Assembly: GCA_950295325.1 (NCBI GenBank)
Contig: OX485807.1
Location: forward strand, 3,226,501-3,290,500
From: Polytrichum commune
Taxonomy: Eukaryota > Streptophyta > Polytrichopsida > Polytrichales > Polytrichaceae
Direction: 5' to 3'
Length of the DNA stretch: 64,000 bases
A model generated the notes under the pieces. That model was not told the origin of the DNA. It ran no database searches and was given only the letters and a program-made list of their open reading frames with translations. This document shows positions 40,391-64,000 of this stretch, in pieces. Position 1 is the stretch's first letter. Each line of letters starts with the position of its first letter. The translations under genes were made by a program, and so were the position numbers.

Positions 40391-40532
40391 AAGGTGTTAT
40401 TACAGTGATCATAGAGTATTCTCTTGCTAAGTAAACCGCATAAGCACTCCCATAGAGAACACCGATCTCCCATGATGAAACATTGACACTGTTGATTCCA
40501 ATTTCTAAGTTGCTTGGATCCCCAAGGGGAGA

Positions 40533-40724
40533 GGGTTGCACCAGCCAAAGAAGTAGTGCAATACCACGGCAATGCTTGCAGATTCTAACAGCAAGTTGTC
40601 TAATGAACCCGCACCCTTAAAATATTAGATTAATATCATGAGACTCGATGAGTCTCGTATCAGATATTAAACTGATAAGAACAGATACTACACTTGATCT
40701 TAGCCAAAAGGCCGAGAAAGGTAT
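40533..40724 (-). ncRNA. U2: U2 spliceosomal snRNA, copy 1
   Basis: U2 pairs with the intron branch site in the spliceosome. Read on the minus strand, the gene starts ATACCTTTCTCGGCCTTTTG at 40724 and keeps the branch-site-recognition word GTGTAGTATCTG. It also keeps the stem IIa/b region and the Sm-site region, where this copy reads AATATTTTAAG. Stem-loop IV has the conserved GGTATTGCACTAC loop, and the RNA ends near GGTGCAACCC. The length of about 192 nt fits the family. The first ~100 nt are identical to copy 2, while the 3' half differs at many positions, so one copy could be a variant or pseudogene. Its promoter element lies at the correct distance. Confidence 0.93.
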
Positions 40725-40795: not shown

Positions 40796-41455
40796 AAACA
40801 GCTTGTTTGAAATACCTCACTTGGACATGTACTCTAATTTATCAAACTTATCTCTAGGCCATTTTCAACCAGATCGGACTCAATATTTGCATGTTGAACT
40901 ACCACTCCAGACTTTGAGCCACTTTATGAATATATTTAGGTGTCGCTGCGTTCAGTAACATGGAAAAATATTAAGGTCAAGTTCTCATCAAATAGAGTGT
41001 GCATGTGAAGCCTTCATGATCACCCAGTACAGAGTATGCTTTAGAACTTCCATTTCACCCAATGCATGTAGGCCCCTTTGCGTTGAGGTATTCACGCCAT
41101 TCCCTTTATTTACATTCTATAGCACCAAGAATGTCGACAGCCCAGTTCGTGCCTTTTATGTTCGACCTAAGTGGAAGAACTCCAAAGCACTGTCTCCTCC
41201 GGAAGTGGATGCTCTGAATGGCACTTAAAACATGATCCCTCATCGTTTTTCTAAATAGGTGTCTAAATATACTTAGGCTTACGTACTGGAAAGTATGTTA
41301 CCAAAGGGAAGGTTTCCAATATCTTTACTGATGTGTTCAACTTTAAGGTGTTCTTTGGGATATTGTTCCCGTTCAATATAGAACTCTGCATTCCTATACA
41401 ATTGTCGATTGATCCTAGGTGCGTTTTCAAGACTTTTTGGGTTCCCGGAGGAAGA

Positions 41456-41647
41456 GGGTTGTGCCTGCAAAGGAAGTAGTGCAATACTAATGCGACACTG
41501 CAGGATCCTAACAGCAAGCTGTCTGGTGGACCCGCACCCTAAAAAAATTAGATTAATATCATGAGACTCGATGAGTCTCGTATCAGATATTAAACTGATA
41601 AGAACAGATACTACACTTGATCTTAGCCAAAAGGCCGAGAAAGGTAT
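41456..41647 (-). ncRNA. U2: U2 spliceosomal snRNA, copy 2
   Basis: Second U2 gene, 923 bp from the first and in the same orientation. The 5' ~100 nt (cap-proximal stem, branch-site-recognition word, stem II) are identical to copy 1. The Sm-site region reads AATTTTTTTAG, closer to the usual A-U-rich consensus. Stem-loop IV keeps the GTATTGCACTAC loop, and the end is near GCACAACCC, giving about 192 nt. Downstream, CAAAAAGTCTTGAA resembles the plant snRNA 3'-end box. This copy looks the more canonical of the two. Confidence 0.94.
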
Positions 41648-52025: not shown

Positions 52026-52597
52026 GTCTATGTGTTCTATGTTAGTTTTAAGTTTTAGCGTCAGTGGGTAGTTAAGTCAAGTGGGACCGGGTTCTTTCTT
52101 TCTTTCTTTCTTTCTTCCTTTTTGTTTAGAATAATGAGCGTTAGGTACTTCATAACATTTTGTGAGAAGGATTCCATAAGTTTATGGATTTTGGAGTTGG
52201 AGATATGTAGGTCTTGGAGGTATTTGGCAATGATTGTGTAAATAGTGCCTCGTATTCCGCGTTTCCTATCAAAAGAACCCCACTAGAATTAGTGTGAAGA
52301 ACCAGAGATGAGAGAGTGCTGCTGAGATCTCCGCAATTCCTGGGGATGTGAAGTGATAAGAGAGGATGCCGCTGAAGACTAATGTGTGTACTGTTAGGAG
52401 CTGGCCTACAGTGACCCCGCACGCATTACGAACAGACGGTCAGAGTGCTTGGAGAGGAGTTGAATGTGTTGAGGGGTTTGTGTATGTCCAGTCTCAGATC
52501 TAGGAATGCAGAGCTTGTGAAAGAATTGTTAGATCTCAAAAATAGAGTAATCTGAAAGAGCTGGGGCTCTAGCTGGGTATGATTGAGGTAGTTAACT

Positions 52598-53941
52598 TTG
52601 TTTCCCTGCTTGTATTTGTTTAGATCTGAAACTGGTCATGTCACATTGGGGAAGGAAATATGCACCCATGACTCAAGCATTCTGATACTCCAGATCGCTT
52701 CATTGAACCAGGTTTACTTTAACAAAATAGCCAGAGAGTTGCACAAGAGGAGCCATAGGCTCCTTCTTCCATACACATACATTGTCATTTCATTGTTTTT
52801 GATCCTTACACATAACATAGATGCAGGACTAGATCTACACCCCGGCCACCCTACAGAGCCTCAAGTGGCGGACTCAGTCACGAACGGAGGAGAACCACAG
52901 CGCTACACCGAATGGAGCCGTGAAGGGGTCGTGAAAGAAGATTGGGGAAGCAGCAACGCGGGAGGGGATTCACTAAACCAGATCTGCTCAGCCCTACAGA
53001 AGTCAGCTCCCAAAAATCGCCATCAAAGTTGCAGCACAACACAACAAAGGCTCGGAGGAAGCCCACATCAAAAACCCAAAAAGACACATCCAAACAACAA
53101 AGGGCCGAAACAACATAGATCCACACCAGCCAAGGAGAGGAGACAAAACACCATAGATCTTCAGTACTGCACATCTGGACCCGAGACCCACATTCAAGAT
53201 CTGCAATCACCGATTTCGAAAAAATCAATAGCGGCGCTCAAATCAGGACGAGTTTGCTCAGCAATCAGCCGAGATCTGCAGACAGGGGGCAAAGGAGCGA
53301 CTCCGAAGAAACCAGTAACAATGCCGCGATCGAGGGGGGACTGCACTGCAACCAGGGATCGCAGCCAGGGGCAGGCTAAAACCAGTAAGATCGATAAAAC
53401 CAAAAAGAGTGCTCAAATCGGGAGGGGTTTGTGTAACCAGGGGAAGCCCGTAACCACTGCGATCACAATAACCAAAAGCAACATTCAAATAGGGAGGGGC
53501 TTGCACAGACAGGAGAAGCCAGCAAGCACCGAGATCGCAAAACCCACTGGCAGCTCCGAAAAAAGGAAGAGTCCAAGAAGAACAGGGGACCCCCGAGCGA
53601 AGAGAAGAGGTAGAATAGGAGCCGTAACCGGGAGGGGCCAACATCACAGACAGAAGAAGCCTACAACCATCGCAAAACCTGTGTGCAGCATAGAAACAAG
53701 AAGAGGCATACACCGCAGCCAAGGAAAGCCAGCAACTGCCGTGACTACACAACCTAAGAGCGACGTTAAAACCAAGAAGCGACTACGCCGTGGCCAAGAG
53801 AAACATACAAACACTTCGATCGCAACATCTAAGAGCAGCAGAGGAAAAACCAAGAGTTCGGGGAAACCAGGAGACACACGAGTGAAGAAACCAAGCAACA
53901 CAAGAGCAGCAGGAAAGGGGGGCTTGCGAACACGGAGCTAG
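52598..53941 (+). CDS. Element ORF1, N-terminal part: hydrophobic segment then basic tandem repeats
   Basis: 447 codons. Residues about 50-75 form a hydrophobic stretch (RLLLPYTYIVISLFLILTH) followed by AGLDLHPGHP, loosely reminiscent of the signal-like/2A-like heads of some LINE proteins. From about residue 105 the protein is very basic and built from diverged repeats of about 24-36 residues (…IGRGL-R/N-Q-KP-TT-I…). These correspond to DNA units of about 75 bp with GGGAGGGG and GAAGCC words, running on to about 54120. It is probably a nucleic-acid-binding ORF1 product. The frame is left at 53941 and continues in another frame. Confidence 0.5.
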   Translation: MFPCLYLFRSETGHVTLGKEICTHDSSILILQIASLNQVYFNKIARELHKRSHRLLLPYTYIVISLFLILTHNIDAGLDLHPGHPTEPQVADSVTNGGEPQRYTEWSREGVVKEDWGSSNAGGDSLNQICSALQKSAPKNRHQSCSTTQQRLGGSPHQKPKKTHPNNKGPKQHRSTPAKERRQNTIDLQYCTSGPETHIQDLQSPISKKSIAALKSGRVCSAISRDLQTGGKGATPKKPVTMPRSRGDCTATRDRSQGQAKTSKIDKTKKSAQIGRGLCNQGKPVTTAITITKSNIQIGRGLHRQEKPASTEIAKPTGSSEKRKSPRRTGDPRAKRRGRIGAVTGRGQHHRQKKPTTIAKPVCSIETRRGIHRSQGKPATAVTTQPKSDVKTKKRLRRGQEKHTNTSIATSKSSRGKTKSSGKPGDTRVKKPSNTRAAGKGGLRTRS

Positions 53942-54441
53942 AGGGCAGCCCTGAGAGCCCGAGGAGAAGTCTACACCGTAGAAGGAAGAGGTCGCCACCT
54001 GCCGAAACCACAGACGCGAGGTGCAGCTGGGATAGCACCAAGGAACTAAGGGGAGGTCTGCACAGCAAGAAGAAGAGACCCTCACCTACGGTGGCTACAG
54101 GTCCGAAGAGCGGCCAGGCTAGCACCGAGAGAACAAGGAGAGAACTAGGTAATACCCAGCTACCCCTTACCAGAGCCGAAGGCAGCAGAGTACCCATGTC
54201 GTCACAGAGAGCCTCCCGTAAAAGTAATGGGGCTGAGGGTAGTAGCCTAGCCCCAATTACTCTTTCAAAAATCTTTGGGGAGGAGGAGGACATTATGGAG
54301 ATAGACTCTCCAACTCAAAGTCTCAAAAGACTTTTGGAAGAAAAAGCAAAAAATCAAAGCAAAGGGGCAGCTCAAGGGAAGTGTACTAGAGAACCCATCA
54401 AGATGGAATCCGTTCTCACACACGTACCCAATGAAATTTAG
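53941..54441 (+). pseudogene. Element ORF1, continuation in shifted frame
   Basis: The plus-1 frame is open from 53941 (EGSPESPRRSLHRRRKRSPP…), so the basic repeat protein continues after a frameshift. It then becomes less basic (…LAPITLSKIFGEEEDIMEIDSPTQSLKRLLEEKAKNQ…) and stops TAG at 54439-54441. A further shift leads into the next segment, whose frame overlaps at 54431. It carries no motif of its own that I recognise. Confidence 0.45.
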
Positions 54442-55180
54442 ATTTTGGTTAGGCTTTGAGGTTATGGAAAAACTAGCTAAGGAGCAAGGAGTCGAGGAGC
54501 TCTTCAATGACGAATCCATTGCCGACCGCATCACAAGAGGAATCCCCCGCAAAGAGGCCGAAGAATTGGAGTGTGTAAGTATCTCTTACCCAAGAGTCCC
54601 TCAAACCCTATACCCAAGTGAGAGGAGTGATGGCATAAATGGGCAACATCTTAACCTAACCCAACTACCACAAGAAATAGAAATTGACCCAATTTCTAAG
54701 CTTTCCAAGGATTTTCACATTGCTATCCACTTTCAACTTCCCAACCACCCTCTTATGCACAATCATATCAAAGAGCTAGTACAAGAGAGGCTAGATGACA
54801 TGAAGATCGCACTAGGAACCAACCTTATAGAACCCATATCCGTTCTATGCATGAGTGTGAAAAGGGGAGGAATGAAAGGAGTGTGGGCCGGGATCATTAA
54901 ACTCCATCTCCTTAACCCTCACATTGACGGGATTGCCTTACTAACCAGGCTAAGGGCCTTTATCCTTCACCTTGAGCCACACTCAAGTGTTGGAAGCCTA
55001 GGCAAGGTTTGTAAGTCCTACCATACAATTGCTAGGAGTAACAACCTATCAATTAAAATTTCCAATGACACACTTGTGGGCATAACCGCTCATGACCTCT
55101 TTCTAGACATTCTAGAAAATAGCTTTAGGAGAGGGCACAAATTTGAAATAGTAGAAGTTCAAAAGGGTACCCCCCAATAA
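54431..55180 (+). CDS. Element ORF1, middle part
   Basis: 249 codons with normal protein composition (…KELVQERLDDMKIALGTNLIEPISVLCMSVKRGGMKGVWAGIIKLHLLNPHIDG…). It is probably an RNA-binding/alpha-beta fold of an ORF1 protein, but no defined family is recognisable by eye. The frame ends at TAA 55178-55180, right after a run of six C. With five C the frame would run on as …KGTPNNHAYIVTPTP into the next segment, so both were one protein. Confidence 0.5.
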   Translation: MKFRFWLGFEVMEKLAKEQGVEELFNDESIADRITRGIPRKEAEELECVSISYPRVPQTLYPSERSDGINGQHLNLTQLPQEIEIDPISKLSKDFHIAIHFQLPNHPLMHNHIKELVQERLDDMKIALGTNLIEPISVLCMSVKRGGMKGVWAGIIKLHLLNPHIDGIALLTRLRAFILHLEPHSSVGSLGKVCKSYHTIARSNNLSIKISNDTLVGITAHDLFLDILENSFRRGHKFEIVEVQKGTPQ

Positions 55181-55193
55181 CCATGCGTATATT

Positions 55194-55946
55194 GTGACCC
55201 CCACCCCTCTCCAAGCCAAAAAAAATCAAACTTTACAAGTCTCTACCCATCACCAAATTCTAGAGGGGCAAGTTACCAAAGGCCCCTCCCTCACCCTAGA
55301 GCAAAAGGCTAAAAAAGAGGCCCTCATCCTCACCTTTTACAACCTCCCTATTCTAATGAACATCGAGGATACCTCCCTAGAGATTTGTAAAATCCTAGGG
55401 ACCAAAAATGTTGTGTCAATATGGTTTCACAAGCAAGATGGGCTAAGGCATAACGGGAGTGCAAACGTAGAGTGTCTCAACCCCTATGTCTATAGGAAAT
55501 TCTTAGGCAAAGAGGCAAAAATCGGGGCCTACCACGTGGAAATTACCCCGCACCGAAGGAGCCTAGAAGGAAGTGAAAAACCATCCAAGGAGTTACTAGT
55601 CAAATTCGGCTTCGAAGACACTAATACGTGTTTGGTAAATACGGTTGAAGCCATCCAAAACCAAACACAAGGAGAGGTAAAAGTGACAAATGAGGATGTT
55701 CTTACCGTGATGAAAGAGGCCATAGAGGAAGGTAATAAAAAGCTCAAACTTGAACTCCACAAGGATATGAAGGAGTTAAAAAATGACATTGTAAAAGAAG
55801 CTCATTTATATGCGGATGAAATAAATGAAAAACTCAAAAAACAAATGATGGAAATTCAAAGTACCCTATCCTTGGCATTAACGGGGATGCAACAAATCAC
55901 GGGAGTGGTTAAACCAATGCTCAAAGACCAACCAAATGTGGAGTGA
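55194..55946 (+). CDS. Element ORF1, C-terminal part: RRM-like domain and coiled coil
   Basis: 250 codons in the frame reached by removing one C near 55168-55174. Residues about 45-125 (EALILTFYNLPILMN … VVSIWFHK … GSANVECLNPYVYRKFLGKEAKIGAYHVEITPHRR) have the beta-alpha-beta pattern of an RRM-type ORF1 domain. Residues about 165-245 are a Lys/Glu/Leu-rich coiled coil, which could mediate trimerisation or oligomerisation. The upstream context has no ATG, consistent with it being the end of a longer protein. The assignment to a LINE ORF1 is by position and architecture. Confidence 0.5.
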   Translation: MTPTPLQAKKNQTLQVSTHHQILEGQVTKGPSLTLEQKAKKEALILTFYNLPILMNIEDTSLEICKILGTKNVVSIWFHKQDGLRHNGSANVECLNPYVYRKFLGKEAKIGAYHVEITPHRRSLEGSEKPSKELLVKFGFEDTNTCLVNTVEAIQNQTQGEVKVTNEDVLTVMKEAIEEGNKKLKLELHKDMKELKNDIVKEAHLYADEINEKLKKQMMEIQSTLSLALTGMQQITGVVKPMLKDQPNVE

Positions 55947-55979: not shown

Positions 55980-56125
55980 CTAAATACTATCATATACATA
56001 TATACATATATATACACGTACAATATATACAATATATATATATATTAAATACACAGATACAATACATACATACATAGTATATACATACATACTAAATATA
56101 CATATACAATATATGCATACTAAAA
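55980..56125. repeat. TA/TACA microsatellite after ORF1
   Basis: A mixed (TACATA)n/(TA)n tract. In many LINEs a microsatellite marks a 3' end, so this could be the tail of a separate 52-56 kb element. It could also be a spacer inside one element. Confidence 0.7.
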
Positions 56126-56342
56126 TAAATACAGTATACCGTACAAAAGGTATCATACAATACCACAAACCCCATTTGGTATACAAATACAATACCCACC
56201 CCCCTATATCCGAATACATACAAAATACAATACACCTACCCTATACTCAAACCAAAATACAATACCAAAAAACCCAAAAAATACCATCGTATTACACACA
56301 CCCAACTACCACCCACATTACAAAAAATACCCAAAAAATAAA

Positions 56343-57557
56343 ATGGCCTCGGCCTACCGGCCTCGCCATCAAACTAAATGCAAATACAACTCAACAACAA
56401 ACAACTATATTAAAATACACTTCATGCCTAAACAACTAAAACACATTATACCCACCCCACCCACCACTACCCCTACAACAAAATCTACACCTAACAAATA
56501 CCAAAAATCAAACAAGAAAAAACCAAAAAAACTCTCATACAAAACAACCCGGCCACACTTACAATATAGGTACCCCCCAAAAAACAAACTTCATCATACA
56601 TACAAACCGCATCTAAACTATAAGTTACATCCCAAACAAAGATCATACTCAAAACTAAATCTCCCCCGTACATCTAAACAATTAAATATCATAATACACA
56701 CTCCGAATTCCGTAAAATACTCAAAACCCATACAACACTCAAGGCACCTCCTTTACCCTAAACACGGATCCCATCCAAAACACATAAACTACTTAAAATA
56801 CATATCTCGTCCAATACATAACCCACCATATAAACTAGGAGCCTACCCTAACCTAAAGGCACGCCAACAAAATAAACTACATCCTAAACATAAACCCCAC
56901 CTAAAACCCATACTCTACCCCCAATCAAAATCCAACACCTACTCAAAATACAAACAACTTCCAACAAACAATGTGGCCTTGGCCTACCGGCCTCGCCACA
57001 AAAAGAACCGGAAAACTCACCTCACCAATTGGATACCCACCCTAATGACAAACCAAGTACCTAAACAATATACGAACTTATACACCTTACTCAAACAACA
57101 TAAAAACATAACACACATCCTACACCACTCCCCTTCCACAACAAAACTAACACCCCTCAAAAACCTAAATCCAAACAAAACAAAACCGAAAACAATTAAC
57201 ATATATAGATATTCACCTAATATTGCAAGCACCTCAAGGATAGAATTTACAAAAATACCAAATTACACCATTAACTACCCAAAACACAACCCCATAACAC
57301 AACACACTACGCATCCAAATTTTACCGATCACCCAAAAGTAAAAATACAATGGCCCCTCTCACAACACACTACGCATCCAAATTTTACCGATCACCCAAA
57401 AGTAAAAATACAATGGCCCCTCTCACAACACAAATACTTCCAAAGTAAAAAACTTTATACTAAAGTCAAAACACACCCAAGGCATAGATTACAACATCAA
57501 CACAAAACTCAACCAAAACCTAAAACAAGCCCTTTAACCAATCAATTAAAAATATAA
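56343..57557 (+). CDS. 404-codon low-complexity frame in the AC-rich spacer
   Basis: It opens with the 26-bp GC-rich motif (MASAYRPRH) and then encodes mainly Lys, Asn, Pro, Thr, His and Tyr in degenerate repeats (…YKPHLNYKLHPK…). The frame stays open largely because a G-poor, T-poor strand seldom makes TGA/TAG. It contains a second, diverged copy of the motif (…NNVALAYRPRH) and two perfect 21-residue repeats (QHTTHPNFTDHPKVKIQWPLS). Whether it is translated is doubtful. It may be the 5' leader monomer region of ORF2. Confidence 0.3.
   Translation: MASAYRPRHQTKCKYNSTTNNYIKIHFMPKQLKHIIPTPPTTTPTTKSTPNKYQKSNKKKPKKLSYKTTRPHLQYRYPPKNKLHHTYKPHLNYKLHPKQRSYSKLNLPRTSKQLNIIIHTPNSVKYSKPIQHSRHLLYPKHGSHPKHINYLKYISRPIHNPPYKLGAYPNLKARQQNKLHPKHKPHLKPILYPQSKSNTYSKYKQLPTNNVALAYRPRHKKNRKTHLTNWIPTLMTNQVPKQYTNLYTLLKQHKNITHILHHSPSTTKLTPLKNLNPNKTKPKTINIYRYSPNIASTSRIEFTKIPNYTINYPKHNPITQHTTHPNFTDHPKVKIQWPLSQHTTHPNFTDHPKVKIQWPLSQHKYFQSKKLYTKVKTHPRHRLQHQHKTQPKPKTSPLTNQLKI
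57298..57433 (+). repeat. Perfect 63-bp tandem duplication
   Basis: The unit beginning AACACACTACGCATCC at 57301 repeats identically from 57364, with a partial third start near 57427. Identity of the copies contrasts with the decay around them, so the duplication is recent. Confidence 0.9.
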
Positions 57558-58006
57558 CACTCCCCCCACCACAACATACTCACACAACACAAGAACCACC
57601 CTGGTCCCACTTAAAACACTTCCCCCACCCAAGATATAGCTCACAATTAAAACACGATCTCCATCCATGGAATAAGTTACACCCAAACTATAAAGGCCAT
57701 CTAGAACATAAACTTCACCCAAAAATCAAATTATACCCAAACCACAAACACCTTCAACCTCACTCAAAATACATATCTCATCTAAAACATAGACTCCCTC
57801 CAAGACACAATTCTCATCCAAAAAATAAACTCCATCCGAAAAACAAAGTAACCTCAACCTACCAACCCCGCCTCTCAACAAACATCAAAACACACCTAAA
57901 AAACAAATGCTCCAAAAATAAACCCTACCCTAACTTCGAACATCATAACAAAACCAAACAACTATTAAGCCCCCATATAAATTACCAACCCCACTCACAA
58001 AACACA
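57558..58006 (+). other. AC-rich spacer with degenerate short repeats
   Basis: It consists of loosely repeated words of about 18-22 bp (AAAC-TACATC-CAAAACATA type), also present at 56580-56960. No gene is seen. Confidence 0.45.
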
Positions 58007-58636
58007 ATGGCCTCGGCCTACCGGCCTCGCCACACATATAATAACAAATACCACTTCATAAACAATTGGAAACCTAAATCAATAACAAGCCAAAAATCTA
58101 CAAATAATACAAAACCACACTTCTCACCCATACAAATAGAAAAAACCATACCCGCTATACCTAACCTCTTTACCACAACCAAATTTACAATCACAATATA
58201 TCTAAAAACAAACATGAAAAACCCCAAAATAATTCACTTTCATGGATACTACTTCATTAACAAACTAGAATTACTAAAATGCGGAGACATAGAATCCAAC
58301 CCCGGACCAATGCCTAACATCCTACATACACATCCTGCCACACACAAAAAGAGAGCCAAGATATACTTCATCCCAAATACTATAAAACTACAACCTGAAT
58401 ACCAACACATAGCAAATACATTTGCTCCCATACTAAAAAATACACACCACCTACACCATCAAGCAATTATTACCCACCCACACCTACACCAATACATCCA
58501 AACACAAAGGCAATCACCACTAACCCATATACTATATGCCATAGTTATTACCATCCACCCCTCAATAGACACATGCAATAACATACTAGCCCGCCCCCAA
58601 AATACCACTTTAACAACATATGGACCAACACATTAA
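58007..58636 (+). CDS. Element ORF2, N-terminal part with 2A-like peptide
   Basis: 209 codons from the motif-borne ATG; an alternative start is 58214. The sequence LELLKCGDIESNPGP at residues about 87-102 matches the 2A consensus D-(V/I)-E-x-N-P-G-P, at which ribosomes skip a peptide bond between Gly and Pro. 2A-like peptides at the head of ORF2 are known from several non-LTR retrotransposons. The remaining residues are low-complexity. A frameshift in the region 58582-58636 (C-run) separates this part from the endonuclease frame, which is open upstream to 58582. Confidence 0.7.
   Translation: MASAYRPRHTYNNKYHFINNWKPKSITSQKSTNNTKPHFSPIQIEKTIPAIPNLFTTTKFTITIYLKTNMKNPKIIHFHGYYFINKLELLKCGDIESNPGPMPNILHTHPATHKKRAKIYFIPNTIKLQPEYQHIANTFAPILKNTHHLHHQAIITHPHLHQYIQTQRQSPLTHILYAIVITIHPSIDTCNNILARPQNTTLTTYGPTH
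58268..58309 (+). other. 2A-like ribosome-skipping motif
   Basis: Codons for ELLKCGDIESNPGP; the skip would fall between the Gly codon at 58304-58306 and the Pro codon at 58307-58309. All invariant residues (D, E, N, P, G, P) are present. Function is inferred from the motif only. Confidence 0.8.
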
Positions 58637-60456
58637 TTATTAGACTAGCTAACCTCACCAACCCCCCCGAAAGGCACATATTGACACCCCACCCCTACAC
58701 AACATTTGTAGAAAATAATCAAGATATAATACTTCCAAAAAACTCAATAAACACCAAAATATATGATTTCATCCACAACCAAGCTACCACACCCACATCA
58801 ATCATCCTCAAGAATGAATTCCCCTACCTTCCAAACCAGTTAATAACCGAAACACTTAGATGTCTAGAAAATATAAACGAATACTCACACCCACCCCCAC
58901 TCCCGGCCGCTCCCACTCCAATCACACGAATAAACTCTATCACCGAGTATGAAACAAACATAATAACTTGGAATGCGTCATTGCTCAACACATCACTACC
59001 AAACTTACAAGACTTAATCAACAACTCTCTAAATAACACAACAATCATTCATATCCAAGAAACCAAACTCACTGCAAACAAATCAACTAAATATATACAA
59101 AACTTATTTCCGGAATTCAAACTCATTTTCAACAATACACACGCACTCACAAGGTGCATCCAACAAAGAATGCCCTATACCCCCGAAAGAGGTGGCCTAC
59201 TCACACTTATCCATCACAAATATGCATTCCCGGGAAATGTCACCAAAATTCCCACACCAGCAAACATCTCCCCGTACCTACAAATAATAAAAATAAATAA
59301 CCATTCACTAACACCTTGGCTAATTATACACATGTATATGCCTACGCACCTAGAAGACACATGTCTTATCCCACACCTCAAGAATGAAATCACTAAACAA
59401 ATCACTACACACCCCAATCACATATACGCACTGTGTGACGACTTCAACATAGATATTGCACTTAGGGGCAGACAAAATAACAACACTACTACCCCCCAAC
59501 AAGAAGATGACCTCCAATGGAAAAATTTTACCACATCTCTCGACTTAGAATATATCACTACCAACACTAGTATTTCCAGACAAGGTGGCTACAACTACAC
59601 ATCAACAAGTCTAATAGATGGTTTCTACATTCACTCCCCTGACAACAACAAATTTACCTCCACTACAAACACAAACATGAATCTAAATTCATATCACTAC
59701 CCAGTCACATTACACATCCCACACAACACACTTATTGCCAGACCTCCGCCCTCTACAAACACCTCACCAACTAGGATACTGAATCCGATACCACCAGAAA
59801 ACCTAGAGAAATTTAACATAACATTCTTCGAAGAAAACTCCATTCAACTTAAAGAACTTACCACACTACTAGAAGACCACCAACACTTAACACCTGATCA
59901 ATGGCAAAATGCCTGCACATCATTGGATTACATTATAAACAAAATCTCAGAAACAATTGAAAAAACCTGCAGAGCTGACCCTCTACCCAACCTCACAAAC
60001 AGAACATCACAACAAGGCGGTTTTTTACCACGCAAACTAGCTAGAGAATGGAAAAGACACCTCAACACATATCACCTCGTCAGGAAAACCATTTACATTG
60101 TACAAAATGACCCAAGCTGGCAAGTGCACCCCATCCTAAACGATATACGAAACCACCAACACGTCAACATCCCACACCCACCTACTACAACAGCATCTCC
60201 TGTCGAATGGATTAACACCATAGCAACTATCGCAAAAACGGCAAATAAAGAAGCCAGGAAAATCACCACAAAATACACCAGAGATTGTATCCTAAAAGCC
60301 GTATCAAAATACCGTCAAATGTATGAAAAAAGCCCCAAGAAAATAAATCGGAAAGTTTTCAAGAACACTGGAACTTCACCTCTTGACTCCATCATTGATA
60401 GACAGAACAACATATTAACCAACCCTGAAGACATTGCTTCAGAGATTTACGCATAA
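58582..60456 (+). CDS. Element ORF2: APE-type endonuclease and linker
   Basis: The frame is open from 58582, without an ATG of its own. Endonuclease motifs in order: TWNASLL (residues from about 58960), IHIQETKL (about 59045), CDDFNID (about 59435; family norm GDFN), SLIDGFYIHS (about 59608) and NSYHYPV (about 59686; family norm SDH-P). The last lacks the catalytic-site Asp and the third has Gly changed to Asp, so nicking activity is doubtful. The linker after 59750 leads to the reverse transcriptase in the same frame. TAA at 60454-60456 is the first of two in-frame stops before it. Confidence 0.85.
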   Translation, partial: HTSPPPKYHFNNIWTNTLIIRLANLTNPPERHILTPHPYTTFVENNQDIILPKNSINTKIYDFIHNQATTPTSIILKNEFPYLPNQLITETLRCLENINEYSHPPPLPAAPTPITRINSITEYETNIITWNASLLNTSLPNLQDLINNSLNNTTIIHIQETKLTANKSTKYIQNLFPEFKLIFNNTHALTRCIQQRMPYTPERGGLLTLIHHKYAFPGNVTKIPTPANISPYLQIIKINNHSLTPWLIIHMYMPTHLEDTCLIPHLKNEITKQITTHPNHIYALCDDFNIDIALRGRQNNNTTTPQQEDDLQWKNFTTSLDLEYITTNTSISRQGGYNYTSTSLIDGFYIHSPDNNKFTSTTNTNMNLNSYHYPVTLHIPHNTLIARPPPSTNTSPTRILNPIPPENLEKFNITFFEENSIQLKELTTLLEDHQHLTPDQWQNACTSLDYIINKISETIEKTCRADPLPNLTNRTSQQGGFLPRKLAREWKRHLNTYHLVRKTIYIVQNDPSWQVHPILNDIRNHQHVNIPHPPTTTASPVEWINTIATIAKTANKEARKITTKYTRDCILKAVSKYRQMYEKSPKKINRKVFKNTGTSPLDSIIDRQNNILTNPEDIASEIYA

Positions 60457-60600
60457 CAATCCATCAGCAACCGCCCAACAGTCCACACATGCCACCATCA
60501 AAATATACATCCAATTCACTGTACATGCGGAGTAAGGCAATACCCTTGGCACGACTTAGATTGATACACAATAGACAGACGAGGAGAATCCCAAATTCCC

Positions 60601-61554
60601 TTGCACACATACTTTGATCAAGAAACATACGACTTCTGTCTTAAAAACCTAAGTAACAATAAAGCCCCAGGTCCAGACAAAATTCCCAACTCAATCCTAA
60701 AAAATATGCCTCCACGCTTTCACAAAATATTATTCTTATTCTTTAAACACTGCTATAAACAAAAACAAATCCCAGCATCATGGAAAACTAGCCTAACAGT
60801 TTTACTATATAAGAAAGGTAACCCATCACAACTAACAAACCACAGACCTATTGCACTAGCTAACACTATATATAAATTATACACAAGCACATTAACCTCT
60901 ATCCTATCAACATACGGAGAAAGATACCAAATATTACACGATAGCCAAGAAGGGTTCAGAGCAGAAAGAAGCACCTCCAGACAAATCCAAATACTAATTG
61001 CAGCACTTGAAGACGTCAGACTCACGAACCAAGATATATACATTCTTTACATTGACTTCAAAAACGCCTTTGGCTCCATTGACCACGCCAGACTATTACC
61101 CATAATGAAAGACCTGGGTTACCCCAATGACTTCATAAACCTCATAGGAAACATATACTCACAATCATCAACCATATTTACCGGGGAACACTTCGGTAAA
61201 ACCTTACCAATCCACATCCAAAGAGGTACAATACAAGGCGATACCCTTAGCCCATACCTATTTATCATATTCTTGGAACCCCTACTTAGATGGCTGCAAC
61301 AAGGAAATAATGGATATACCTTCGGTACGTCCAGAGTCACAATTTCATCAGCAGCATATGCAGACGATCTTGCAGCAATCGCCAACAAACTAAAAGCATT
61401 ACAAACACAAATAAACAAACTAGACAAATTCTGTGAATGGGCAGGCATGGACCTAGGTATACCAAAATGTGCAGTAACTGGATGCCCAAACAAATCTAAA
61501 CTCAACCCCACAACCTTCAAGGCCCTAATCACAATCCACCAACATAAATTATAG
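60601..61554 (+). CDS. Element ORF2: reverse transcriptase domain
   Basis: The same frame continues across stops TAA 60454 and a TGA at about 60562; the residues between (…CTCGVRQYPWHDLD…) read as linker. RT motifs are complete: NNKAPGPDKIPNSILK, LLYKKGNPSQLTNHRPIALAN, DSQEGFR, LYIDFKNAFGSIDH (motif A Asp), RGTIQGDTLSPYLFIIFLEPLL (motif B) and AYADDLAAI (motif C, 61357-61368). It is typical of LINE-type RT, with the longer insertions and no protease or integrase. The frame ends at 61552-61554 after a one-base shift around 61520-61550. Confidence 0.95.
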   Translation: MHTYFDQETYDFCLKNLSNNKAPGPDKIPNSILKNMPPRFHKILFLFFKHCYKQKQIPASWKTSLTVLLYKKGNPSQLTNHRPIALANTIYKLYTSTLTSILSTYGERYQILHDSQEGFRAERSTSRQIQILIAALEDVRLTNQDIYILYIDFKNAFGSIDHARLLPIMKDLGYPNDFINLIGNIYSQSSTIFTGEHFGKTLPIHIQRGTIQGDTLSPYLFIIFLEPLLRWLQQGNNGYTFGTSRVTISSAAYADDLAAIANKLKALQTQINKLDKFCEWAGMDLGIPKCAVTGCPNKSKLNPTTFKALITIHQHKL

Positions 61555-62140
61555 AAACCAACCTATACCAGTCCTAAACCAGCATGAACCCTATACATAC
61601 CTAGGAATAAATCTTGCACCATCATTCAAATGGAAAACACAAATAAATACCACCACAGCTAAAGTAATCAAACAGTGTCAAGCCCTAATAGCTTGCCCAG
61701 CTACTATGAAACAAAAAATCAACATGGCAGACACAGTCATACGTGCTGGAATAGCATATAGTTTTTATGCAGTACCATACTCCATATCAGCCATAAAAAA
61801 ACTAGACAAAAAGATCATCGCACTCCATAAAACAATATGCGGAATACCTAAATGCACACCTAATATTGCCACGCAACTCCCTCACAACTTATTTGGAATT
61901 GAAGCATTTTCACTACAAAATGCCTATCTAAGGTGCATTGGTGAACAATTACAAAATGCCCTCAATGACAAAGGGAGAATTGGGAAAATATATACTGGCC
62001 TAGTACAATTCATACTCGCTACACATGGGGGCTCTCAAGAAATCACTCGCATTAAATACCATCACTGTGTTAGATCACTCATCACTAGAACACTGTTCCT
62101 ACTAAAACATAAAGCCGGAGTCCATCAAAAAACACAATAA
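61555..62140 (+). pseudogene. Element ORF2: RT thumb/connection region in shifted frame
   Basis: In the next frame, …YRNQPIPVLNQHEPYTYLGINLAPSFKWKTQINTTTAKV… follows directly on the RT; YLGI is the usual post-palm motif. Residues …IAYSFYAVPYSISAIKKLDKKIIALHKTICGIPKC… continue the thumb-like part. The reading returns to the original frame at the A6 run near 62125, giving …SKNTINNFLLTPSSLETAWMQEAQVL. Confidence 0.8.
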
Positions 62141-62181
62141 ACAACTTTCTACTAACCCCATCCTCACTTGAAACTGCATGG

Positions 62182-63402
62182 ATGCAAGAAGCACAAGTGC
62201 TACATGGTCTAAACCCCAACATCTCACTTAAACTACTACACAAACTACTTATACATAATATAACAACACTAGACCAAATTACCATGCCTAATGGTATCAC
62301 TCTAATGAACAAGGACGAATTCAAAATATACCACTCCACTCCTTCTAAACTCATCCAAAACACACTTAACATAGCTAATGAACTATTCTGCCACCCCCCC
62401 TACAATCAATGCCCCCTACCCTGCCAACAACACCACCCACCAAGATCCCTTAAAAACAAATATATAATAAGAAATCACAACATCCTACCTCACACACCGA
62501 CCGCCCCCGTACACCCCCCTAACCCCCCCATCCCTCATCTACCTCCTCCCCCCAACAACATGCTTAAAGACCCCCGACAATTCCCGATACACAAAATACT
62601 CGATCACAAACAAAAACAATCTAATGACCACAATGGAATAAAAAGAATAGTCACGTCATACCGGTGTCAATGGACCACAACAAATAACAACACATATAAT
62701 AAATGGCGAACCCCAAGGGACCTATACCCCTACTGTGAAGCCGACATATGCAACCACAACACAAACCTACTTATCCAATATTACACAGAAAGACAACACA
62801 ATCATTTTCCAAACATCATTAACGCTTACTTCACCACGGAACAACACCGAGACACAAGATACGTCACACCACCCACAATAATTCCGCTAGCACATATTTC
62901 TATTAGTGAATGCAACCCAGAAAACAACATCGAAACAAATTCTGATACTATCCAAACACAATTCGATGTCGCCCACATATACGAAGACAATGGAAGGCAC
63001 CTCATCACCATCCCAAAAGCTAGACTAACATGGCTATGGAAACAATATCAATTGGCAAAAAATACCACACATGGTCTAGAACCATCTACCCAATCATTCG
63101 AAACTGAAATTGTTTGGCTATACCAGAGATACAAATACCGTATCCCAAAAAACGACCCACTCAAAAGAGCCCAATATACAATACCAACACAAATACTAGA
63201 TCTACTAATTATAACATTCAATATTTCTCATTCTTACTTTTCATCCCCAGTTACATGTCCTACACAATTCACCCAATTCTACTCACCCTTTTCACGAGAC
63301 ATAATATTTGGATCCTTAGGAAAAGTGTTTGACTATAAATGGCAAGGAATTGGATACGCATATCCTCACACCTCAACAGACCTACAACAAGCCATTCACT
63401 AG
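62182..63402 (+). CDS. Element ORF2: chromodomain-like and methyltransferase-fold-like region
   Basis: 406 codons. A Cys/His cluster (CHPPYNQCPLPCQQHH) and a Pro-rich linker come first. About 62584-62785 reads IHKILDHK … IKRIVTSYRCQWTTT … YNKWRTPRDLYPYC … LLIQYY, the pattern of a chromodomain (KILDH, Y-C-QW, W-P-DL, LI-Y). From about 63000, GRHLITIPKARLTWLW, FETEIVWLYQRYKYR and FSSPVTCPTQFTQFYSPFSRDIIFGSLGKVFDYKWQGIGYAYPHT resemble the PCIF1-type methyltransferase region, but the catalytic NPP motif is replaced by YPH. The frame stops at TAG 63400-63402 (after …DLQQAIH) and continues unchanged after it. Confidence 0.6.
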   Translation: MQEAQVLHGLNPNISLKLLHKLLIHNITTLDQITMPNGITLMNKDEFKIYHSTPSKLIQNTLNIANELFCHPPYNQCPLPCQQHHPPRSLKNKYIIRNHNILPHTPTAPVHPPNPPIPHLPPPPNNMLKDPRQFPIHKILDHKQKQSNDHNGIKRIVTSYRCQWTTTNNNTYNKWRTPRDLYPYCEADICNHNTNLLIQYYTERQHNHFPNIINAYFTTEQHRDTRYVTPPTIIPLAHISISECNPENNIETNSDTIQTQFDVAHIYEDNGRHLITIPKARLTWLWKQYQLAKNTTHGLEPSTQSFETEIVWLYQRYKYRIPKNDPLKRAQYTIPTQILDLLIITFNISHSYFSSPVTCPTQFTQFYSPFSRDIIFGSLGKVFDYKWQGIGYAYPHTSTDLQQAIH

Positions 63403-64000
63403 GCACGCATAGCGGCCCAAAATGACCCTTACACAATCACTATAATTATATCCCCAGACACTGACTGGTACCAAAACTCGAACCCACACACATGCTCATT
63501 CCCAGATACACATGTCATTGCCCATTTTGCCGCTGACACAATCACATACGAAGAACCAACAATACCCCCCGAGCTCAATACTACAAGGAAAGAACCATCT
63601 ACCATGCAAATATTTTGTATCCATCATCAAAATAATAACATAGGTACCTACGAACAAATGAAGCTAATACACGACACAACGAATAACCTCCAAATACTAC
63701 AAAGCCACACTCAAATTGCACCACCCACCCCCCCGAACATCACCGTTAACCCTAGTAAAAAATGGGTTAAATCAAACTACCCAAACACACCCCTATACAA
63801 TAATAACCCCACCCCACAAATCCCAAACTACCAAACCAACTTACCGCTAAAATTCCACCCCCAATTTAGCTACTACACAGATGGATCCTTTATAAAACCC
63901 AAAGAAATTGCCCCTGGAGTATGGAGAAGAGAAAGAGCTGGATATGGTATCTATAGCCCCAAAGGCTTAAATATCGCCAAAAGACTCCATGGGCATCAAA
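63403..64000 (+). pseudogene. Element ORF2: end of methyltransferase-like region and start of RNase H (truncated by window)
   Basis: In the same frame after the TAG: ARIAAQNDPYTITIIISPDTDWYQNS … THVIAHFAADTITYEEPTIPPE, the second half of the methyltransferase-like fold with alternating hydrophobic strands. Then from about 63871 comes SYYTDGSFIKPKEIAPGVWRRERAGYGIYSPKG, the first strand of RNase H with its catalytic Asp in TDGS. The remaining RNase H residues and the 3' end lie beyond the window. Confidence 0.7.

Follow-up and report, generated by a model that had tools for sequence, protein, structure and literature searches.

Long interspersed nuclear elements (LINEs) of the Dualen/RandI kind, found in green algae, encode both an apurinic/apyrimidinic endonuclease (APE) and a restriction-like endonuclease (RLE), together with RNase H, according to the parts of the published descriptions that were available (PMC3636483, PMC4640811). 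The capture of an RNA-modification domain by a plant retrotransposon has been reported for orchid Ty3/Gypsy elements carrying an AlkB N6-methyladenosine (m6A) demethylase, and in its available text this report (PMC9289625) contained the closest published idea that we found to the element considered here; among the literature matches listed, none described a retrotransposon with PCIF1. The present study concerns a LINE located in the stretch of 64,000 nucleotides of Polytrichum commune DNA presented above (G000:C5:3226501-3290500, hereafter the window), which belongs to a 408-Mb genome of 64 contigs. Between the reverse transcriptase (RT) and RNase H, the second open reading frame (ORF2) of this LINE contains a domain related to PCIF1/CAPAM, the cap-specific adenosine N6-methyltransferase.

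Like Dualen/RandI, the P. commune LINE has APE ahead of RT, an RNase H and, at the C-terminus, a CCHC motif with RLE-like residues. It is set apart from Dualen, by the partly available descriptions only, by the PCIF1-type domain and a chromodomain-like stretch between RT and RNase H as well as by a 2A motif and a long leader. With PCIF1/CAPAM it shares a match to PF12237 over the cut-off and the SP-x-x-C and FG-x-x-G stretches, whereas the NPPF motif is replaced, mostly by H-P-x-x, no WW family was named in the scanned ORF2 frames at E-values up to 10, and the domain is part of a LINE polyprotein and not of a cellular gene. The orchid elements are similar as plant retrotransposons with a captured RNA-modification domain, but differ, as far as the excerpted account goes, in being long terminal repeat (LTR) elements with an eraser and not a writer fold, encoded in a separate ORF and active in vitro (PMC9289625).

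Results

The profile PF12237 (PCIF1_WW) matched the window frame 62113-63399 with an E-value of 2.3e-11 and a score of 44.1 bits, the cut-off being 31.1. Although the title of PF12237 refers to a WW domain, the matched stretch corresponds in alignment to the part of the PCIF1 structures 6irv and 6irx leading into NPPF, that is, to the methyltransferase core. The methyltransferase-derived domain extends over positions 62986-63639 (+) and contains a TAG at 63400-63402 in the window copy. Its profile matched eight of the eight aligned members, and the SP-x-x-C and FG-x-x-G stretches aligned to PCIF1 were retained. When solved structures in the PDB were searched with profiles, two PCIF1 sequences ranked first and second, but only at E-values of 0.017-0.091. 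A genome scan with PF12237 placed 150 of 150 scored places over the cut-off, which is a lower bound given the 697 candidates. The same profile was present in 0 of 14 control genomes, a result of little weight, since the set consisted of well-known genomes, bacteria and archaea where named.

Most of the other copies were found via the PCIF1-type domain itself and are not independent evidence for its presence. To lessen this bias, three elements were chosen via the 2A site, from sites without a listed PF12237 place nearby, and the domain was present in all three, with the chromodomain-like and methyltransferase parts located between RT and RNase H. Moreover, the fetched families, which were 57-64% identical to the intact copy C1_17 over the compared frames, all carried the domain. 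A LINE relative devoid of the domain was not found, which is no proof of absence, as only the best candidates were scored and most searches were domain-based. To look for a PCIF1 gene of the host, a 104-aa fragment of PCIF1 from the alignment to 6irx, presumably of zebrafish, was used as the query, and no such gene stood out, although one split by introns could be missed; all 125 scored places matched this fragment (E-values from 9.9e-4 to 1.9, 30-42% identity), and many of them were LINE places already listed.

The PCIF1-type domain is under purifying selection and is constrained like the other enzymes of the element. In the comparison of C1_17 with C4_34, the ratios of nonsynonymous to synonymous substitution rates (dN/dS) were 0.054 for RT, 0.075 for APE, 0.058 for RNase H, 0.095 for the CCHC-RLE part, 0.095 for the methyltransferase part and 0.039 for the chromodomain-like part, and in loose stretches they rose to 0.48 upstream of 2A and to 0.44 in the linker that precedes RNase H, synonymous sites being near saturation between distant families. 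Between C1_17 and L029 the dN values were 0.25 for the methyltransferase part, 0.25 for APE, 0.26 for RNase H and 0.52 for the chromodomain-like part.

According to the alignments to PCIF1 and among the copies, the position equivalent to NPPF is at 63361-63372 (+). It reads YPHT in the window copy and in most others H-P-[H/P/Y/N]-[N/T/S/P], with H, P, Y or N following H-P and then N, T, S or P. NPPF was found in none of the 31 distinct motif strings (0/31). The first H was kept in 30/31, the window copy having Y, and H-P in 28/31, the exceptions being Y-P in the window copy, H-L in L050 and H-A in L056. In this count one genomic copy may appear under two locus identifiers, and copies with a stop inside the pattern (e.g., C1_38) are missed; the motif comparison was made without the frameshifted L042, and alignment A8 without L028, L033, L037, L042, L043 and L045. 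As stated in the available part of the report, NPPF is needed for the full activity of PCIF1, and mutating it lowers this activity (PMC6318281). In Drosophila PCIF1 the F of NPPF is changed to H, and the flies are without N6,2'-O-dimethyladenosine (m6Am), according to the excerpts of the relevant study (PMC9479742). Because NPPF has been lost in every copy read, a normally working methyltransferase of the usual N6-adenine kind is unlikely.

In the other copies ORF2 encodes, in this order, 2A, APE, RT, the chromodomain-like stretch, the PCIF1-type domain, RNase H, CCHC and the RLE-like C-terminus. C1_17, C4_34, C1_51 and L029 showed this order in its entirety, and other copies showed part of it; in the 2,646-codon frame of the fetched stretch of L029, the order of Pfam matches was Exo_endo_phos, RVT_1, PCIF1_WW and RNase_H. 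An unbroken ORF2 comprises about 2,600 codons. When a piece spanning the chromodomain-like and methyltransferase parts was used as the query, 107 places were scored among 2,299 candidates, and stop-free frames of 2,625-2,924 codons were present in five of these 107; of the five, two were read from end to end, and in another one, C4_34, the reading covered 2,790 of the 2,924 codons. The landmarks of C1_17, a single frame of 2,625 codons, are, in codon numbering, 2A at 277, APE motifs at 504 and 746, RT motifs at 1068 and 1302, the chromodomain-like stretch from 1703, FSSPVTCP at 1929, the NPPF equivalent from about 1969, the RNase H motif YTDGS at 2141, CCHC at 2402, FRPD at 2490 and FIEF at 2518.

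In the window copy ORF2 is broken into at least six open pieces, in addition to which it has the TAG described above. All its parts are on the + strand. The 2A ribosome-skipping motif GDIESNPGP is at 58283-58309 and the APE-type endonuclease at 58942-59733. The catalytic motifs of the latter, invariant in 4/4 aligned copies, are altered in the window copy from GDFNRD to DDFNID and from SDH to SYH. In the relative L029, APE was over the cut-off (PF14529 Exo_endo_phos_2, 5.6e-8; PF03372, 3.4e-7), whereas in C1_17 and C4_34 it was below it (1.3e-4 and 1.2e-5) with the catalytic motifs still present. RT extends over 60601-61714 with a frameshift near 61531 (RVT_1, PF00078, matched in the frame 60565-61551, E 3.8e-28). 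The region after RT, defined by alignment to an intact copy, lies at 61715-62373 with a frameshift near 62130-62149. RNase H starts at 63826 and is cut by the window end at 64000; PF00075 matched at 3.1e-13 in one intact copy and at 1.3e-14 and 3.5e-11 in further frames. The CCHC, the RLE-like C-terminus, the 3' hairpin and the (CTAT)n tail of the window copy follow RNase H outside the window. A very strong strand bias was observed in the window at 56001-64000, along ORF2 and the leader (GC skew -0.40 to -0.64, AT skew 0.30-0.37).

The full-length but decayed LINE copy spans 52259-65818 (+), that is, 13,560 bp, 1,818 bp of which are beyond the window end, as delimited by its target-site duplication and by alignment to other copies. 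The 12-bp duplication GCCTCGTATTCC is an exact match on both sides, its 5' copy occupying 52247-52258 and its 3' copy lying outside the window (L010:3638-3649). A second near-identical copy at C1:38.07 Mb has a separate 12-bp duplication, GAAAAACGGTGA, and a truncated copy on C7 has about 12 bp common to both flanks. In the truncated C3 copy (C3_2.7) a duplication was looked for and none was found; thus, duplications were seen in 3/4 copies examined. The 3' end, common to 8 of the 12 searched copies, namely the eight whose fetched stretch reaches that far, consists of the hairpin GGCCCCTAAAAGGGACC, with one base different in one copy, followed by TTT(CTAT)n. In two copies the 5' part is truncated. 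The element therefore has the RT, the target-site duplications, the fixed 3' end with a short tail and the 5' truncation that identify a LINE. The truncated C3 copy was 99.3% identical to C1_17 across 6.1 kb, which suggests recent activity, and the family appears to be large and recently active. Scans of viral contigs with A1, A2 and A4 as queries revealed no relative.

These results partly bear out a first-pass annotation made from the window letters alone. It had proposed that, in a LINE lineage, a module derived from a PCIF1-type methyltransferase was acquired between RT and RNase H; the module recurs in families at 57-64% identity, in the 2A-chosen elements and under purifying selection. 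The PCIF1 profile matches above threshold that it looked for in several copies with the same order were obtained, and so were intact copies, as the stop-free ORF2 frames in the same genome demonstrate. From the named order of 2A, APE, RT, chromodomain-like, methyltransferase-like and RNase H, five blocks are supported by Pfam matches or motifs in intact copies, while the chromodomain is suggestive. The extent given to the element, 58007-64000, has to be replaced by 52259-65818, which includes ORF1; the remainder of RNase H, CCHC and the C-terminus lie past the window end.

When the RT profile was compared with solved structures, three R2 sequences scored 104-114 bits (6e-32 to 8e-29), L1 ORF2p scored 70-72 bits, and two entries named 'Reverse transcriptase-like protein', which we take to be R2Bm, scored 68-72 bits. 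This ranking, which covers solved structures only, leans to R2 and does not settle the clade; an RT of the Dualen/RandI kind would be expected to branch between the R2 and L1 groups. To our knowledge, R2 has neither an APE nor a PCIF1-type domain. As described in the available part of the source, R2 also carries CCHC and RLE after RT, but it has N-terminal zinc fingers and Myb and is targeted to 28S rDNA (PMC6895275), whereas the 3' flanks of the eight copies of this LINE that reach the 3' end all differ from each other. After RNase H, a conserved C-x2-C-x9-H-x4-C is followed by R-x2-PD ... E ... K-x2-KY. This C-terminal CCHC and RLE-like region suggests a dual-endonuclease element, as in Dualen/RandI, rather than plant L1, which had been the frame of comparison in the first-pass annotation; the RT comparison leans the same way and is indecisive. 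The architecture thus most likely fits Dualen/RandI best, with a putative RLE.

The chromodomain-like stretch, unproven as such, lies at 62560-62808 (+). Pfam Chromo was the commonest weak match (5/19 members, best E 0.014; DUF6805 in 4/19), and in a smaller set it was found in 2/8 members (best E 0.11). Profile-profile comparison with six chromodomains gave P values of 0.0036 with 8 sequences and 0.0057 with 20 sequences; 0/150 and 2/200 column shuffles reached the real score, and in the 20-sequence test, made without L042, the reversed-template control scored 15.5 versus 18.2 for the real one. Alignment A7 was built without L037, which has a stop in the stretch, and with L043 and L050 shortened before their stops. 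In the profile-profile comparison the stretch was the best of 79 windows along ORF2. The pattern I-x-x-I, Y-x-C-Q-W, Y-x-K-W is retained. At W+3 most residues are T, P, Q or H, and most copies lack an aromatic residue at the third position of the aromatic cage. When the PDB was searched with a profile of this part, no chain was matched. The chromodomain identity is therefore suggestive: Chromo matches above threshold in several copies, as expected earlier, were not obtained, and of the proposed chromatin-reading module there stands a weak match with a mostly non-aromatic third cage position.

ORF1 occupies 54305-55946 (+) in two overlapping frames, with a frameshift near 55155, and shows 38-42% identity to ORF1 of C1_17, a frame of 595 codons. 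Judged by eye, it has an RNA-recognition-motif-like part and then a coiled-coil; the Pfam scan of ORF1 gave weak matches only and nothing over the cut-off. At the 5' end of the element, a 449-codon open frame of basic and repetitive composition (52592-53941) aligns poorly between two copies that are 97-98% identical elsewhere. The leader contains an exact tandem duplication of a 63-bp unit (57298-57432). It also contains the motif GGCCTACCGGCCTCGCC, present three times in the window (56351-56367, 56981-56997 and 58015-58031, +) and 300 times in the genome, with 0 occurrences of the reversed control. As the family L029 reads this motif in another frame, it looks kept as DNA or RNA and not as protein. 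The degenerate 2A pattern occurs at 255 genome sites (reversed control 0), with many synonymous differences among the sites listed.

Elsewhere in the window, two U2 snRNA genes lie close together on the same strand at 40531-40724 (-) and 41454-41647 (-) (Rfam RF00004, 168 and 161 bits). Chlorophyll a/b-binding genes occur in arrays, one of which, at G000:C5:1751760-1846160, comprises 14 matches whose domain scores are identical. The best cox1 matches lay on contig C9 in several pieces, and an 836-codon frame contained two of these. The host was accordingly taken to be a photosynthetic eukaryote.

Discussion

The explanation that we favour, and to which we would give an even chance, is that the P. 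commune LINE is autonomous and most likely a dual-endonuclease element, that its ORF2 acquired a domain derived from PCIF1 prior to the separation of the families, and that this domain is a cap-binding pseudo-methyltransferase. Judging from the domains and from what is established for R2 and L1, APE would nick the target, RT would prime on the nick using the 3' hairpin or tail (target-primed reverse transcription), RNase H would remove the RNA, and the RLE-like end would cut the second strand. The 2A motif would separate the N-terminal leader peptide. In the least certain step, the PCIF1-type domain would be a pseudo-methyltransferase that binds the RNA of the element itself at its capped 5' end. 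The 5' end could then be held beside RT, which would favour full-length, cis-acting retrotransposition, or the cap could be shielded, in both cases with no methylation. The chromodomain-like stretch, if real, may help to tether the protein to chromatin.

Several points weigh against this explanation. Cap binding, the least certain part of it, is drawn solely from the PCIF1 ancestry of the domain. The RLE-like C-terminus had no Pfam match and only weak, unrelated PDB matches (E 0.53 or worse). AlphaFold, given the sequence of the window copy alone, produced no usable model (predicted local distance difference test, pLDDT, 33), and Foldseek with this model gave no match at E ≤ 0.001. A Chromo significance level of E 0.001 or better was not reached by any of the 19 members, and in three pairs of distant families the chromodomain-like part evolves at 1.4 to 2.1 times the rate of the methyltransferase part. 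The honey bee, with NPPY, is also without m6Am, and in the available text the change of F to Y is thought an unlikely explanation (PMC9479742); this implies that the state of the motif is an imperfect guide to activity. Finally, the strong conservation of H-P may also fit an active site that is changed yet still functional.

Such an enzyme is the main rival, although we consider it rather unlikely. The domain would methylate a cap-adjacent or other RNA nucleotide, or DNA, with a re-shaped active site in which HPH stands for NPPF, and would thereby evade host RNA surveillance. The near-invariance of H-P next to variable following positions, the strong constraint on the domain with SP-x-x-C and FG-x-x-G kept, and the plant LTR retrotransposon reported, in the part of the paper at hand, to have an active m6A demethylase (PMC9289625) are all consistent with this. 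However, both N and F of NPPF are replaced, and the cited passages state that mutation of the motif lowers PCIF1 activity (PMC6318281) and that Drosophila, with its changed motif, has no m6Am (PMC9479742). Less probable again is the specific version in which the LINE itself would supply an active modifier of the RNA cap end, with HPH as a newly evolved site, that acts on the 5' end of the element's RNA and marks or protects its full-length transcripts, i.e., an epitranscriptomic writer. The part of the first-pass annotation that called the module methyltransferase-derived holds, whereas a working methyltransferase remains unlikely.

Alternatively, the domain could be purely structural or serve protein contacts (e.g., with the tails of RNA polymerase II or with cap proteins of the host) with no nucleic-acid role, which we regard as no more probable than the re-shaped enzyme. 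The loss of the catalytic motif would agree with this, and the name of PCIF1, phosphorylated CTD (C-terminal domain) interacting factor 1, refers to a contact with a protein. This contact is made by the WW domain of PCIF1, whereas none was named in the scanned ORF2 frames, and the conservation sits in the core aligned to the methyltransferase part of PCIF1.

It is improbable that the element is a LINE of the plant L1 type in which the extra region was acquired and the C-terminus only resembles an RLE. In RT score, L1 ORF2p equals the two entries presumed to be R2Bm, but the three R2 sequences score well above both. The host is photosynthetic, and plant L1s can carry RNase H, as the accessible text of two reports states (PMC4640811, PMC5348765), but the conserved CCHC and RPD...E...K region after RNase H speaks against an L1. 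A chance insertion in the window copy, which the first-pass annotation had named as the alternative and which the broken ORF2 and the stop within the domain might suggest, was ruled out together with a gene fusion in that copy, an assembly artefact or a single-copy oddity, as 107/107 scored places on several contigs carry the domain and it is common to the divergent families and the 2A-chosen elements and is under purifying selection.

How a LINE recognizes and completes the 5' end of its own RNA is poorly understood, and a cap-methyltransferase-derived domain that is under selection makes this question testable. In P. commune, the PCIF1-type domain is maintained in many copies without the NPPF motif. 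If the explanation favoured here is true, the capture of RNA-modification domains by retrotransposons would extend from LTR elements to LINEs.

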